Source: Gammaproteobacteria bacterium (GTDB lineage: Bacteria; Pseudomonadota; Gammaproteobacteria; Steroidobacterales; GCA-2729495). Taken from it: a DNA stretch of 64,000 nucleotides. The notes beneath the pieces are model-generated. The model did not search any database and was not told the DNA's origin. It saw only the letters and a list, made by a program, of their open reading frames with translations. Of this stretch, positions 36,016-41,098 are shown piece after piece. The DNA is taken from assembly GCA_015709695.1 (NCBI GenBank), contig CP054183.1, positions 62,001-126,000 of the forward strand. Reading direction: 5' to 3'. A program made the position numbers and the translations under genes. Each line of letters opens with the position of its first letter. Position 1 is the first letter of the stretch.

Positions 36016-36951
36016 GTGACCAAGGTCTCGACCATGAAGCCGTTCGCGCCGGGGGACATCTTCCTGGGATGCACCTACCTGAACGACCCCCAGGATGACC
36101 ATGCCGGCGAAGGGCGCATCCTGCAGTTCGATCGCGACCTGGTACCCAGGGGGACCCTGTACACCGAAGGCACGACGCACCTGGTGATCAACCTCGGCTT
36201 TGGCCCCGACGGCACGCTGTGGGCCTTCGATCCGTTCGCGCGCTGCGTGGTACGCGTGGGGCGCGACGGGCGGCAGCTGCCCGCCTTCGATACCGGCGGT
36301 CGTGCCTGGGGCAATGTGGCGTTCGGCCCCGATGGCAGCATCTACCTCGGCGAGTACCTCAAGGGCAACCGTCCCTACAAGGGTGGCGACATGCGGCTGC
36401 TGCCCGGCACCGGCGTGGTGGGCCATGGCCGCATCCAGAAGCGTGGCGCGGATCTGTCGGTGATCGCGGAATTCGACAACGAGACCGCCGTGTCGCCCAC
36501 CGGCTTCCACGGCGTCACCCACACGGCCATGCATCCGGGCGGGCGCATCCTCAGCTACATCACCGACCTCGGCATGCGCGTGATGCGCTTCGACGTGGTC
36601 GCCGGCCGCCAGCTGCCGGACCTGGTGGCTTATCCCGGCGGCGCCGAGTACGCCCGCAAGTGGACCACCGGCGTCGCCTACCTGGGCGACGGCACGCTGC
36701 TGCTCCTGCGCGGCAGCTTCATCGATTTCGTCGACGAGGCCGGCAGGACCCTGCGCAGCATCCAGCTGGACGAGTATGGCTACGCCATGATCCGCGTTTG
36801 CCGGGACGAACGCTTTGCGCTGGTGGCGAACATCTTCACCGGCGTCATGTCGCGTGTGGACCTGCAGGAAGGCCGCATCCGCGGCCAGATCGACACCGGT
36901 TTCGCCAAGCCCTTCCGCAGCCTCGCCGGGGTCGCCGAGTTCCCCGGCTGA
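36016..36951 (+). CDS. Beta-propeller (SMP-30/NHL-like) protein of the amidoligase cluster
   Basis: A 311-residue protein with repeated blade-like segments (NLGFGPDGTLWAFDPFARCVVRV, NVAFGPDGSIYLGEYL, HTAMHPGGRILSYITDLG). No signal peptide is seen, so it is probably cytoplasmic. Propellers of this type act as lactonases or binding scaffolds; which applies is not readable. GTG 36016 follows GGGGAGAA; ATG 36034 is an alternative. It lies 26 bases before the C39-like gene and probably heads the operon. Confidence 0.82.
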   Translation: MTKVSTMKPFAPGDIFLGCTYLNDPQDDHAGEGRILQFDRDLVPRGTLYTEGTTHLVINLGFGPDGTLWAFDPFARCVVRVGRDGRQLPAFDTGGRAWGNVAFGPDGSIYLGEYLKGNRPYKGGDMRLLPGTGVVGHGRIQKRGADLSVIAEFDNETAVSPTGFHGVTHTAMHPGGRILSYITDLGMRVMRFDVVAGRQLPDLVAYPGGAEYARKWTTGVAYLGDGTLLLLRGSFIDFVDEAGRTLRSIQLDEYGYAMIRVCRDERFALVANIFTGVMSRVDLQEGRIRGQIDTGFAKPFRSLAGVAEFPG

Positions 36952-36977
36952 GGCCGCGCGGACCGGGGGGAGGCGCC

Positions 36978-37703
36978 ATGCACCAGCGGCTGCGATTCCA
37001 GATTGCCGCGCAGCCCGATGAAGTCACCTGCGGGCCGACCTGCCTGCACGGCATCTACCGCTACCTCGGCGACGACATCGGCCTCGAGGACGTCATCGGC
37101 GGCGTCGACATGCTCGGCAGCGGCGGTGGCACGCTGGACGTCTTCCTGGCCAACCATGCCCTGGCACGCGGTTACCGCGTCACGCTGTACACCTACAACC
37201 TGCGGCTGTTCGATCCCACCTGGGCCCTGCTGCCGGTCGGCGACCTGATGGCCAGGCTGCAGGCCCAGGCAGCCGCCAAGGATGACGCCAAGCTGAAGCT
37301 CGCCAGCAGCGGCTATATTCGCTTCCTCGAACTCGGCGGCAAGCTGCGTTTCGAGGACCTGCGTCCCGCGCTGCTGCGACGCTTCCTCGGCCGTGGCGTG
37401 CCGGTGATGACCGGGCTCTCGGCCACCTACCTCTACCAGGCCCGGCGCGAGATTCCGGAGACTTGCGTGGCCGACGACGTGCGTGGCCAGCCCGCCGGGC
37501 ATTTCGTCGTGCTGTCGGGTTATGATCGCGCCACCCGGCTGGTCGATGTCGCCGATCCCTACGAATGGAATCCCATCAGCGGCCAGCGCTACTACTCGGT
37601 AGACCTCCATCGGCTCATCAACGCCGTGCTCCTCGGCAGCCTGACCTATGACGCCAACCTGCTCGTGATCGAGGTGCCGAGGCGCCGTCGATGGCTACGC
37701 TGA
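36978..37703 (+). CDS. C39-like cysteine peptidase
   Basis: A 241-residue papain-fold peptidase of the C39 type. The triad is visible: C18 in EVTCGPTCLHGIYRYLG, H175 in PAGHFVVLSGYD and D193 in VADPYEWNP. C39 domains usually cut leader peptides after double glycine during bacteriocin export, but this is a free-standing soluble form. GGGGGGAGG precedes the ATG. Its 3' end overlaps the ATP-grasp gene by 13 bases, so they are translationally coupled. It may process or hydrolyse the product of the ligases. Confidence 0.86.
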   Translation: MHQRLRFQIAAQPDEVTCGPTCLHGIYRYLGDDIGLEDVIGGVDMLGSGGGTLDVFLANHALARGYRVTLYTYNLRLFDPTWALLPVGDLMARLQAQAAAKDDAKLKLASSGYIRFLELGGKLRFEDLRPALLRRFLGRGVPVMTGLSATYLYQARREIPETCVADDVRGQPAGHFVVLSGYDRATRLVDVADPYEWNPISGQRYYSVDLHRLINAVLLGSLTYDANLLVIEVPRRRRWLR

Positions 37704-39151: not shown

Positions 39152-39159
39152 GTCCGGCC

Positions 39160-40398
39160 ATGCTGCGGCTGTTCCAGGGTTTCGGCATCGAGCTCGAGTA
39201 CATGCTCGTCGCCGCCGACAGCCTCGACGTCGCGCCGCGGGCGGACTGGCTGCTGGCGGAGGCCGCCGGCGACATCACCGGCGAGTACTGCCATGGCGAC
39301 ATGGCCTGGAACAACGAGCTGGCGCTGCACGTCATCGAATTCAAGCTGAACGGCCCGGCACCGGGCCTTGGCGGCCTGGCCGCGCGCTTCCATGGCGAGA
39401 TCGCCAGGGCCAACGCGCTGCTGGCGGGCCGCGGCCTGGCGCTGATGCCCTCGGCCATGCACCCGTGGATGGATCCGTCGCGGGAACTGCGGCTCTGGCC
39501 CCACGACAACCGCGAGGTCTACGACTGCTTCGACCGCATCTTCTCCTGCAAGGGGCACGGCTGGGCCAACCTGCAGAGCATGCACATCAACCTGCCCTTC
39601 GCCGACGACCGGGAGTTCGCCGCCCTGCACGCGGCGGTGCGTTTCCTCCTGCCGCTGATGCCGGGTCTTGCGGCCAGCTCGCCGGTGATGGATGCGCGGC
39701 TCACCGGCATCGCCGACAACCGGCTCGATGTCTACCGCGGCAACTGCCGGCGCATCCCCTCGGTGACCGGCGAGGTGGTGCCCGAGCCGGTGTATGGCAT
39801 CGCCGAGTACCAGCGGCGCATCCTCGGGCGCATCTACGCCGACCTGGCGCCGCTTGACCCGCAGGGCCTGCTGGCCGAGGAGTGGGTCAATGCGCGGGGC
39901 GCGATCCCGCGCTTCGGGCGCATGGCGCTGGAGATCCGCGTGCTCGACGTGCAGGAATGCCCGCGCATGGACCTCGCCTTCGCGCAGCTCATCGTCGCGG
40001 TGCTGCGCTCGCTCTGCGAGGAACGGCACTGCGACCTGCGGTCGCTGCAGGACCGGGACACCGCCGGGCTGGCACGCTACCTGGCCGCGACCATCGTCGA
40101 TGCCGAGGCCACCGAGATCCACGACAGCGGCTATCTCGCCGCGCTGGGCTACCGCGGCAGCAGTATCCGCGTCGGCCAGCTCTGGGGTGTCCTCGCCGAG
40201 CGCGCGGCGCAGGCGGGGGCGCTGGACCGCGATGCTGAGCGAGCGCTGGAACACTATCTGCGCCATGGCACGCTCGCCACGCGCATCGTCGCGGCGCTGC
40301 CGCGCGAGCCGGGCCGCAGTGACCTGGAGCGCGTGTACCGCCAGCTCTGCCAGTGCCTGGCGATGGACGAGCCCTATGCCGCGCCGTCGCGCCGCTGA
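39160..40398 (+). CDS. GCS2-type carboxylate-amine ligase
   Basis: A 412-residue member of the glutamate-cysteine ligase family 2 fold. The N-terminal FGIELEYMLV and HVIEFKLNGP strands carry the metal-binding acidic residues; GWANLQSMHINLPF and LEIRVLDVQECPRMD complete the site. GCS2 enzymes use ATP to join a carboxylate and an amine. It starts 8 bases after the ATP-grasp gene, giving two amide-forming enzymes in a row. The substrate is not predictable. Confidence 0.87.
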   Translation: MLRLFQGFGIELEYMLVAADSLDVAPRADWLLAEAAGDITGEYCHGDMAWNNELALHVIEFKLNGPAPGLGGLAARFHGEIARANALLAGRGLALMPSAMHPWMDPSRELRLWPHDNREVYDCFDRIFSCKGHGWANLQSMHINLPFADDREFAALHAAVRFLLPLMPGLAASSPVMDARLTGIADNRLDVYRGNCRRIPSVTGEVVPEPVYGIAEYQRRILGRIYADLAPLDPQGLLAEEWVNARGAIPRFGRMALEIRVLDVQECPRMDLAFAQLIVAVLRSLCEERHCDLRSLQDRDTAGLARYLAATIVDAEATEIHDSGYLAALGYRGSSIRVGQLWGVLAERAAQAGALDRDAERALEHYLRHGTLATRIVAALPREPGRSDLERVYRQLCQCLAMDEPYAAPSRR

Positions 40399-41098
40399 GC
40401 CGGCGCCGCGCACGGCGCTGCGGCTGCTGTTGAGCTGCGAGCACGGCGGCAACCGCGTGCCGGTGCCGTACCGTCGGCTCTTTGCAGGCCGGCAGCGGCT
40501 GCTCGCCTCGCACCGCGGCCTGGACATCGGCGCGCTGGCGGCGGCACGCGCATTGCAGCGGCGGCTCGACGCGCCGCTGGTCGCGGCGACCGTGACCCGG
40601 CTGCTGGTCGACCTCAACCGCTCCATCGGCCATCCGGCGCTGTTCTCCGGGCCATCCCGGCGCCTGGCCGCGGAGGAGCGCGAGCGGGTGCTCGCACGCC
40701 ACTATCATCCGTATCGCCGGCTGCTGCGCGCCTGGGTCGCCAGCCACCTCGACCGCGGCGAGCAGGTGCTGCACCTGTCGGTGCACTCCTTCACGCCGGT
40801 CCTCGATGGCCAGCGGCGCAATGCCGACGTGGGCCTGCTCTATGACCCGGCGCGTGCGGAGGAGGCGGCGTTCTGCCGTGAGTGGCAGTCGCGGATGGCG
40901 GTGTGCGCCCCCGACTGGAAGCTGCGGCGCAACTACCCGTACCGGGGTACCGCCGACGGCCTGGTGGTGGCGCTGCGCCGCCATTTCGCCGCGCAGCCCT
41001 ACCTCGGCATCGAGCTGGAACTCAACCAGGCTCGTTTGAAGGCCCCTGCGGTGGCGGCCGCGCTGCTGGCGGACCTGGCCGCGACCCTGCCGTCCTGA
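40376..41098 (+). CDS. N-formylglutamate amidohydrolase-like protein
   Basis: A 240-residue zinc-hydrolase-fold protein. LLLSCEHGGNRVP, RLLVDLNRS, HLSVHSFTP and RNADVGLLYDP are the family motifs with the likely metal and catalytic His/Glu. It overlaps the GCS2 gene by 23 bases, so translation is coupled. In the usual pathway this family deformylates histidine-degradation products, but no hut gene is here; a role in hydrolysing an amide in this cluster is inferred. Confidence 0.85.
   Translation: MPRRRAAEPAPRTALRLLLSCEHGGNRVPVPYRRLFAGRQRLLASHRGLDIGALAAARALQRRLDAPLVAATVTRLLVDLNRSIGHPALFSGPSRRLAAEERERVLARHYHPYRRLLRAWVASHLDRGEQVLHLSVHSFTPVLDGQRRNADVGLLYDPARAEEAAFCREWQSRMAVCAPDWKLRRNYPYRGTADGLVVALRRHFAAQPYLGIELELNQARLKAPAVAAALLADLAATLPS

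Follow-up and report, generated by a model that had tools for sequence, protein, structure and literature searches.

We analysed a window of 64,000 nucleotides, the whole stretch from position 62,001 to 126,000 (forward strand) of contig CP054183.1 of a Gammaproteobacteria bacterium (GenBank assembly GCA_015709695.1), in which five genes lie in a row on one strand between window positions 36034 and 41098. In order, these genes encode a probable beta-propeller protein, a C39-like peptidase, a ligase that carries an RLAN domain and a RimK-type ATP-grasp domain (RLAN-RimK), a GCS2 carboxylate-amine ligase and an FGase-type hydrolase (FGA); the last four are referred to below as the cassette (Table 1). 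An earlier reading made from the letters without database searches (the sequence-only reading) had described five linked open reading frames (ORFs), and with the gene starts listed in Table 1 the spacing was as it had described: a 26-bp gap between the propeller and C39 genes, a 13-bp overlap between C39 and RLAN, an 8-bp gap between RLAN and GCS2, and a 23-bp overlap between GCS2 and FGA. We found no match to a promoter- or terminator-like consensus (sigma-70-like promoter) between positions 35850 and 41250, a result that tells little about whether the genes share a single transcript. A crude scan detected no strong hydrophobic segment in any of the five products.

Table 1. Window coordinates and assignments of the five genes
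Product	Position	Strand	Length and basis of assignment
Probable beta-propeller protein	36034..36951	+	305 aa; PDB matches; accessory at genus level
C39-like papain-fold cysteine peptidase	36978..37703	+	241 aa; PF13529; Q12, C18, H175, D193 present
RLAN domain + RimK-type ATP-grasp ligase	37691..39151	+	486 aa; PF14401 + PF08443
GCS2 carboxylate-amine ligase	39160..40398	+	412 aa; PF04107
FGase-type hydrolase (N-formylglutamate amidohydrolase family)	40376..41098	+	240 aa; PF05013

Families, catalytic residues and structural relatives

Pfam assigned four of the five products to families, all above the family cut-offs, in agreement with the C39-like, RLAN-RimK, GCS2 and FGA calls of the sequence-only reading. 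The C39 protein matched Peptidase_C39_2 (PF13529; E = 7.1e-8, 33.6 bits against a cut-off of 24); the RLAN-RimK protein matched both the RLAN domain (PF14401; 9.9e-44, 149.1 bits against 25) and the RimK-type ATP-grasp domain (PF08443; 9.3e-7, 29.1 bits against 21); and the GCS2 and FGA proteins matched PF04107 (5.5e-24, 85.5 bits against 21) and PF05013 (1.3e-22, 81.5 bits against 28.9), respectively. Searches of NCBIfam placed RLAN-RimK outside the RimK family (TIGR00768; 72.0 bits against a cut-off of 143.4) and GCS2 outside the YbdK subfamily (TIGR02050; 44.9 bits against 176.4), and no model matched the C39 or FGA protein at 0.01. The propeller is the weakest of the five assignments: Pfam gave no match, NCBIfam gave a ScyD/ScyE match below the cut-off (E = 0.004), and the PDB gave natural and designed propellers with a best whole-sequence E of 2.2e-13, no single stretch passing the threshold alone. 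The earlier call of a beta-propeller is therefore probable on the strength of the PDB matches.

Alignments of the RLAN, GCS2, C39 and FGA proteins (A1 to A4, given as 22, 24, 24 and 19 rows of 64, 33, 38 and 23, respectively) are invariant at the catalytic positions in the rows given. We rechecked these residues on all rows, fragments included (RLAN 70, GCS2 33, C39 38 and FGA 24). Six positions of RLAN-RimK that align with RimK and LysX (K280, K319, R365, D433, E445 and N447) are kept in 67–68 of the 70 rows, the remainder being gaps; by analogy with the family, we take the ATP-grasp Lys, Arg, Asp and Glu/Asn among them to be the metal and ATP residues. The GCS2 protein has the ExE motif and the other catalytic residues of its family, all aligned to YbdK, with E11, E13, E60, E258 and R260 in 33/33 rows and H142 in 32/33. 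The papain-like domain of the C39 protein has the expected Gln, Cys, His and Asp (Q12, C18, H175 and D193, kept in 37–38 of 38 rows, the remainder being a gap), and its profile matches ComA peptidase domains (best E = 2.6e-6) with the catalytic positions in register. Likewise, the conserved His and Glu residues of the FGase family are present in FGA (E22, H23, H137 and E215, kept in 23–24 of 24 rows, the remainder being a gap) and align with those of PDB entry 2odf (1.9e-17). Across homologues, the catalytic positions of both ligases are thus nearly invariant, and inactive-site substitutions of both ligases in most homologues, which the sequence-only reading had named as evidence against itself, were not found.

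We also compared AlphaFold2 models of the two ligases with known structures. In the RLAN-RimK model (predicted local distance difference test [pLDDT] score 84.9), the ATP-grasp half is closest, among the Foldseek matches listed, to RimK, ArgX, LysX and D-Ala-D-Ala ligases (Ddl); these matches, to RimK- and Ddl-type enzymes, cover approximately 300–350 of 486 columns. The GCS2 model (pLDDT 93.4) is closest to YbdK (2.0e-14) and next to plant glutamate-cysteine ligase (GCL), with PafA and Dop lower (best PafA match 5.0e-6). The pupylation enzymes PafA and Dop are thus not the closest structures to GCS2.

Conservation and co-occurrence of the cassette

We assembled 69 loci, comprising 29 loci from named genomes, collected by an RLAN protein search, and 40 neighbourhoods from a sample of 185 genomes of the window's class (the window's included), and searched them with profiles grown from the window's genes. 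PF14401, which detects RLAN in both of the locus kinds described below, was found in 44 of the 185 genomes; the 40 neighbourhoods represent 40 of the 43 other RLAN-bearing genomes, and the last three were fetched later. Cassette-type GCS2 and C39 genes were found in the same 12 genomes of the 185, including the window's, all of them among the 44 RLAN genomes and together spanning 11 families. The FGA profile (A4) matched 28 of the 185 genomes, and the scores fall into two groups: 13 genomes score at least 282 bits (282–344) and the others at most 124, indicating that cassette-type FGA is a separate group; the 13 are the same 12 genomes and one other, G140. The sequence-only reading had named rare co-occurrence of the genes as evidence against itself, and this is not what we observed. 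Note that A3 and A4 contain two and six class-sample rows, and that L012 or L014, taken as the sampled genomes G170 and G069, is part of every profile, such that scores in the genomes concerned are in part built in; G114 and G115 contributed no row to A2, A3 or A4 yet score high, and absences elsewhere are unaffected by the choice of profile rows.

A match to RLAN of more than 400 bits was present in 67 of the 69 loci, 32 with GCS2 and 35 without. Of the 32 loci with GCS2, the C39 gene is present in 30 (it is missing from L021, and L027 begins within RLAN) and FGA in 23. The genes run in the order C39, RLAN, GCS2 and then FGA if present, with two exceptions that nonetheless keep the genes together (in L029, C39 follows FGA; in L011, FGA comes first). 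Spacing is tight, with a median gap of -4 bp from C39 to RLAN (29 loci; 27 under 60 bp), 11 bp from RLAN to GCS2 (32 loci; 28 under 60 bp) and -21.5 bp from GCS2 to FGA (22 loci; 19 under 60 bp), where gaps run from the stop codon to the next gene's profile start, L029 and L011 are outside the first and third summaries, and close relatives are counted. In G114 the cassette is interrupted by contig ends, and in G115 the C39-RLAN pair (L096) and the GCS2-FGA pair (L132) are on separate contigs, each approximately 19 kb or more from the contig ends. Named records with the cassette come from Gammaproteobacteria, Planctomycetota, Gemmatimonadota, Cytophagales (Bacteroidota) and Chlamydiae (Chlamydiota), the phyla of metagenome-assembled genomes being as titled and open to binning errors. 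Protein distances among the four families correlate (Mantel r of 0.51–0.79 over 14–22 loci, own group excluded; p = 0.001 in each case, the lowest value that 999 shuffles allow), as would be expected of a unit inherited or transferred together. The near-identical loci L080, L084 and L087 were dropped for the Mantel tests only; they and the own-genus loci stay counted in the locus, neighbour and gap tallies. We conclude that the linkage is not by chance, and that what is conserved is a C39-RLAN-GCS2 unit, which FGA usually but not always accompanies.

The propeller gene is outside this unit. Four of the 69 loci have it, as do five of 15 loci fetched later (four of these five being the same records as the earlier four); all are from the window's genus, and not every member of the genus carries it. 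Hence, among the loci searched, a conserved unit of five genes is rejected, and the propeller is a genus-level addition. The cassette itself is rare and patchy: in a phylum sample the GCS2 profile matched 1 of 299 genomes, the window's own, and among 40 close relatives the RLAN-RimK profile matched 13 (12 at full length, and G220 over the ATP-grasp part only), including 9 of 10 within the window's genus.

We looked for further genes that travel with the cassette. Clustering of ORFs within approximately 7 kb revealed no constant extra neighbour, the Pfam scan covering ten neighbours in four loci, and no carrier, precursor or exporter is constant beside the cassette in the loci examined, consistent with the earlier observation that nothing of this kind in the window identifies a product. 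The GCS2 protein had no phage match at 1e-10 and a single plasmid match at 1e-20, a 9-kb Legionella adelaidensis record (L148). This record, labelled a plasmid, holds RimK-family, GCS2 and FGA genes together with fur, bamE, rnfH and ratA-type genes, and is probably a chromosomal contig. We therefore rejected a mobile element as the carrier of the cassette.

Two kinds of RLAN locus and the proposed function

The 35 RLAN loci without GCS2 are mostly of a second kind. Five have the same C39 gene (L013, L020, L024, L028 and L096), 29 have a gene for an N-acetyltransferase of the GNAT family joined to a C39-like domain (GNAT-C39), the match being only partial in L026, L067 and L077, and one (L086) has neither. 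Two of the three RLAN genomes fetched last have a partial GNAT-C39 match, in one case broken over several frames, and the third has RLAN alone. In locus L136 (genome G151), RLAN and GNAT-C39 matches are broken across several overlapping frames, and this locus looks like a decayed copy. Scanning of two examples identified the second-kind partner as GNAT fused to DUF3335, a C39-like domain; the GNAT-DUF3335 fusion is mentioned in a passage of a 2023 survey (PMC10318531). The two C39-like domains align profile to profile (E = 4e-9), including the Cys, His and Asp, indicating that they are homologous.

A tree of RLAN proteins (63 rows, those under 430 aa left out, midpoint-rooted for drawing only) has one branch that divides 34 rows from 29, with support of 100/100 either side. 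On the side of 34 rows, 31 have GCS2, two are on cut contigs and one is from G115; on the side of 29 rows, 28 have GNAT-C39 and one could not be assigned. The second-kind loci resemble the cassette in having a related RLAN ligase (mostly 39–47% identical to the window's) and a C39-like domain with Cys, His and Asp, and differ from it in that GNAT is fused to the C39-like domain, whereas GCS2 and FGA are separate genes. C39 and RLAN thus look like a core common to both kinds, with GCS2 (usually with FGA) and GNAT as alternatives, and the C39-RLAN pair is presumably the older part. Replacement of GCS2 and FGA by GNAT suggests that the target of the GCS2(-FGA) module is the product's amino end.

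Building on the observed linkage, co-occurrence, catalytic residues and two locus kinds, and on the predicted folds of the ligases, we tentatively propose, in a reading that could well be wrong, that the four genes are a cytosolic cassette for the assembly and trimming of a small amide or oligopeptide. The two ATP-dependent ligases suggest synthesis and the two hydrolases trimming, and the lack of strong hydrophobic segments in these enzymes suggests that both take place in the cytosol. The substrates, the order of the steps, the small size of the product and the pairing of the enzymes would be as follows. In a first module, RLAN-RimK would use ATP to activate a carboxylate and couple it to an amine, by family analogy adding an amino acid to a peptide-like acceptor, and the C39-like enzyme would cleave or transfer the unit so added. 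In a second module, GCS2 would modify an amine with an acyl or gamma-glutamyl-type group, and FGA, if present, would strip an N-acyl group; in the GNAT-type loci, GNAT fused to the C39-like protein would substitute for this module. FGase enzymes cleave N-acyl amino acids and the stand-in is an N-acyltransferase, hence the suggestion that the group handled by GCS2 and FGA sits on an amine. A bolder extension, which we hold to be doubtful, is that the four genes amount to a self-contained and transferable pathway for an undescribed class of N-capped amides or oligopeptides, whose amine-capping module (GCS2, usually with FGA) can be swapped for an acetyltransferase to give a sister pathway with the same core.

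Several observations weigh against the synthesis of a small product by two paired modules. FGA is absent from 9 of the 32 GCS2 loci, including five of the six in records named Planctomycetota; two of the seven named loci of the window's own genus lack it (it is present in five), as does L140, and in L004 it is split between frames. Blastopirellula marina DSM 3645 (L016), a cultured carrier, has C39, RLAN and GCS2 with no FGA match next to them. The pairing of GCS2 with FGA is therefore not strict, above all in planctomycetes, and the planctomycete loci in particular limit our confidence both in a small product and in an N-capped pathway. The tight, operon-like unit of two amide-forming and two amide-cleaving enzymes that the sequence-only reading had proposed is supported, with the second hydrolase usual rather than constant. 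Moreover, G140 has a cassette-type FGA alone, without RLAN, GCS2 or C39 matches; L021 has GCS2 and RLAN without a C39 match; residue 142 of GCS2 is Gln in L093; a single stop codon lies within the C39 match of G120, and likewise within the FGA match of G041; and the separation into two pairs in G115 is a single case. The FGA of G140 (L147:7720-8472, minus strand) is 49% identical to the window's and lies directly before a transglutaminase-like gene.

The same enzymes could instead modify a protein reversibly, with RLAN-RimK attaching amino acids to a host protein at its C-terminus or on a side chain, GCS2 capping or branching the addition, and C39 and FGA removing it. A precedent that counts against our proposal is given in a passage of PMC12239564, according to which RimK attaches glutamates to RpsF and RimB, a peptidase, removes them. 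Ligases encoded alongside hydrolases fit a reversible tag, and the structures closest to the ATP-grasp half of the RLAN model are those of RimK, including the RimK-RpsF entry 5zk6. No gene for a target or tag stood out beside the cassette, a weak objection as the target could be encoded anywhere, and the GCS2 model resembles YbdK and GCL more closely than it does Dop or the Pup ligase PafA, which is also a weak argument. We consider a protein tag, the main rival reading, unlikely, while giving it serious weight, and tentatively favour a small molecule.

A role in catabolism or salvage, in which the main task of the cassette is to break down or recycle acylated amino acids or peptides, with the ligases as transfer enzymes and FGA deformylating N-formylglutamate like HutG, would account for the FGase family membership and the two hydrolases; however, two ATP-dependent ligases with kept catalytic residues would be costly, and the high-scoring cassette-type FGAs (282–344 versus at most 124 bits) stand apart from the others, such that we judge this role quite improbable. 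We think it very unlikely that the product is graspetide-like, i.e. a ribosomal peptide, with the ATP-grasp ligase modifying the precursor and C39 cleaving it. The C39 profile does match the peptidase domains found in ComA and similar peptide exporters, and PsnB, an ATP-grasp ligase of ribosomally synthesised and post-translationally modified peptides, is among the structural matches of RLAN, at rank 30. However, none of 1332 small ORFs (22–110 aa) in the 2-kb flanks, a search that did not extend to the between-gene regions or the rest of the genome, spans lineages, with sharing limited to three pairs between close kin (L017/L021 twice and L023/L027 once); and an ABC transporter family is within range of 9 of the 32 GCS2 loci, but seven of these are in the window's own genus. 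The combination of GCS2 with an ATP-grasp enzyme also follows the logic of glutathione synthesis (gamma-glutamyl-cysteine, then glycine), but the window's genome already has gshA (PF04262, 1.5e-149) and gshB (PF02955, 2.5e-67), and an alternative glutathione pathway is highly improbable. With both genes encoded separately, the cassette as the only glutathione route of this genome is excluded.

The four enzymes, which are found in the same 12 class genomes, are linked in records named as four other phyla (mostly without FGA in planctomycetes) and have no other constant partner among the loci examined, look like a complete pathway whose product does not figure among the bacterial metabolites or protein modifications listed so far, and the GNAT-type RLAN locus suggests that the site of the chemistry is the amine end.

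Neighbouring features and comparison with known systems

The cassette is flanked upstream by a divergent gene (33524-35896, minus strand) with dCache, HAMP, GGDEF and EAL domains, and the window has a second GGDEF gene at 51403-53577 (minus strand). Downstream, the gene at 41176-42243 (plus strand) encodes a 355-aa product with a signal-like N-terminus that is probably exported; it has no Pfam family and a weak, partial match to NCBIfam NF002672. Elsewhere in the window there is a 6S RNA at 16532-16714 (minus strand; RF00013, 56.8 bits), and two long ORFs on the plus strand, at 56470-58056 (528 aa) and 58071-61802 (1243 aa), have no Pfam match at 1e-5 and are either genuine genes or chance ORFs of a G+C-rich genome.

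In agreement with the sequence-only reading, which knew of no described product, our literature search recognised no paper on this gene combination or its product. The nearest known systems each share part of the cassette. The RimK, LysX and ArgX enzymes, and RimK-RimB in particular, have the same ATP-grasp fold and catalytic residues and, like the cassette, a ligase encoded with a peptidase; the cassette differs in the extra RLAN domain, in a C39-like partner in place of a retropepsin, and in the added GCS2 and FGA, and its ligase scores far under the RimK family cut-off. YbdK and other GCS2 ligases share the fold and the aligned catalytic positions of the cassette GCS2, which is only 16% identical to YbdK in the structural alignment, falls below the subfamily cut-off and differs in that all 12 class genomes with it also have C39 and RLAN. 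The Anbu operon (ATP-grasp, alpha-E, transglutaminase and Anbu) is described in a passage of PMC6376114 as a proposed amide-ligase operon whose role is unproven; apart from ATP-grasp, the cassette has none of these genes.

A further parallel is with the predicted amidoligase operons of Iyer et al. 2009. According to a passage of PMC4431377 that credits this work, operonic linkage of an ATP-grasp gene with a COOH-NH2 ligase or GNAT gene is seen in multiple instances, and the cassette and its sister loci likewise link ATP-grasp with one or the other. This kind of system had therefore already been predicted, as the sequence-only reading had stated of similar amidoligase neighbourhoods. As far as we have seen, and as compared with Iyer et al. 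2009 through the citing passage, what is new here is the four-way co-occurrence in the class sample, the division of RLAN ligases according to their partner, and the reading of the cassette as two pairs of enzymes.

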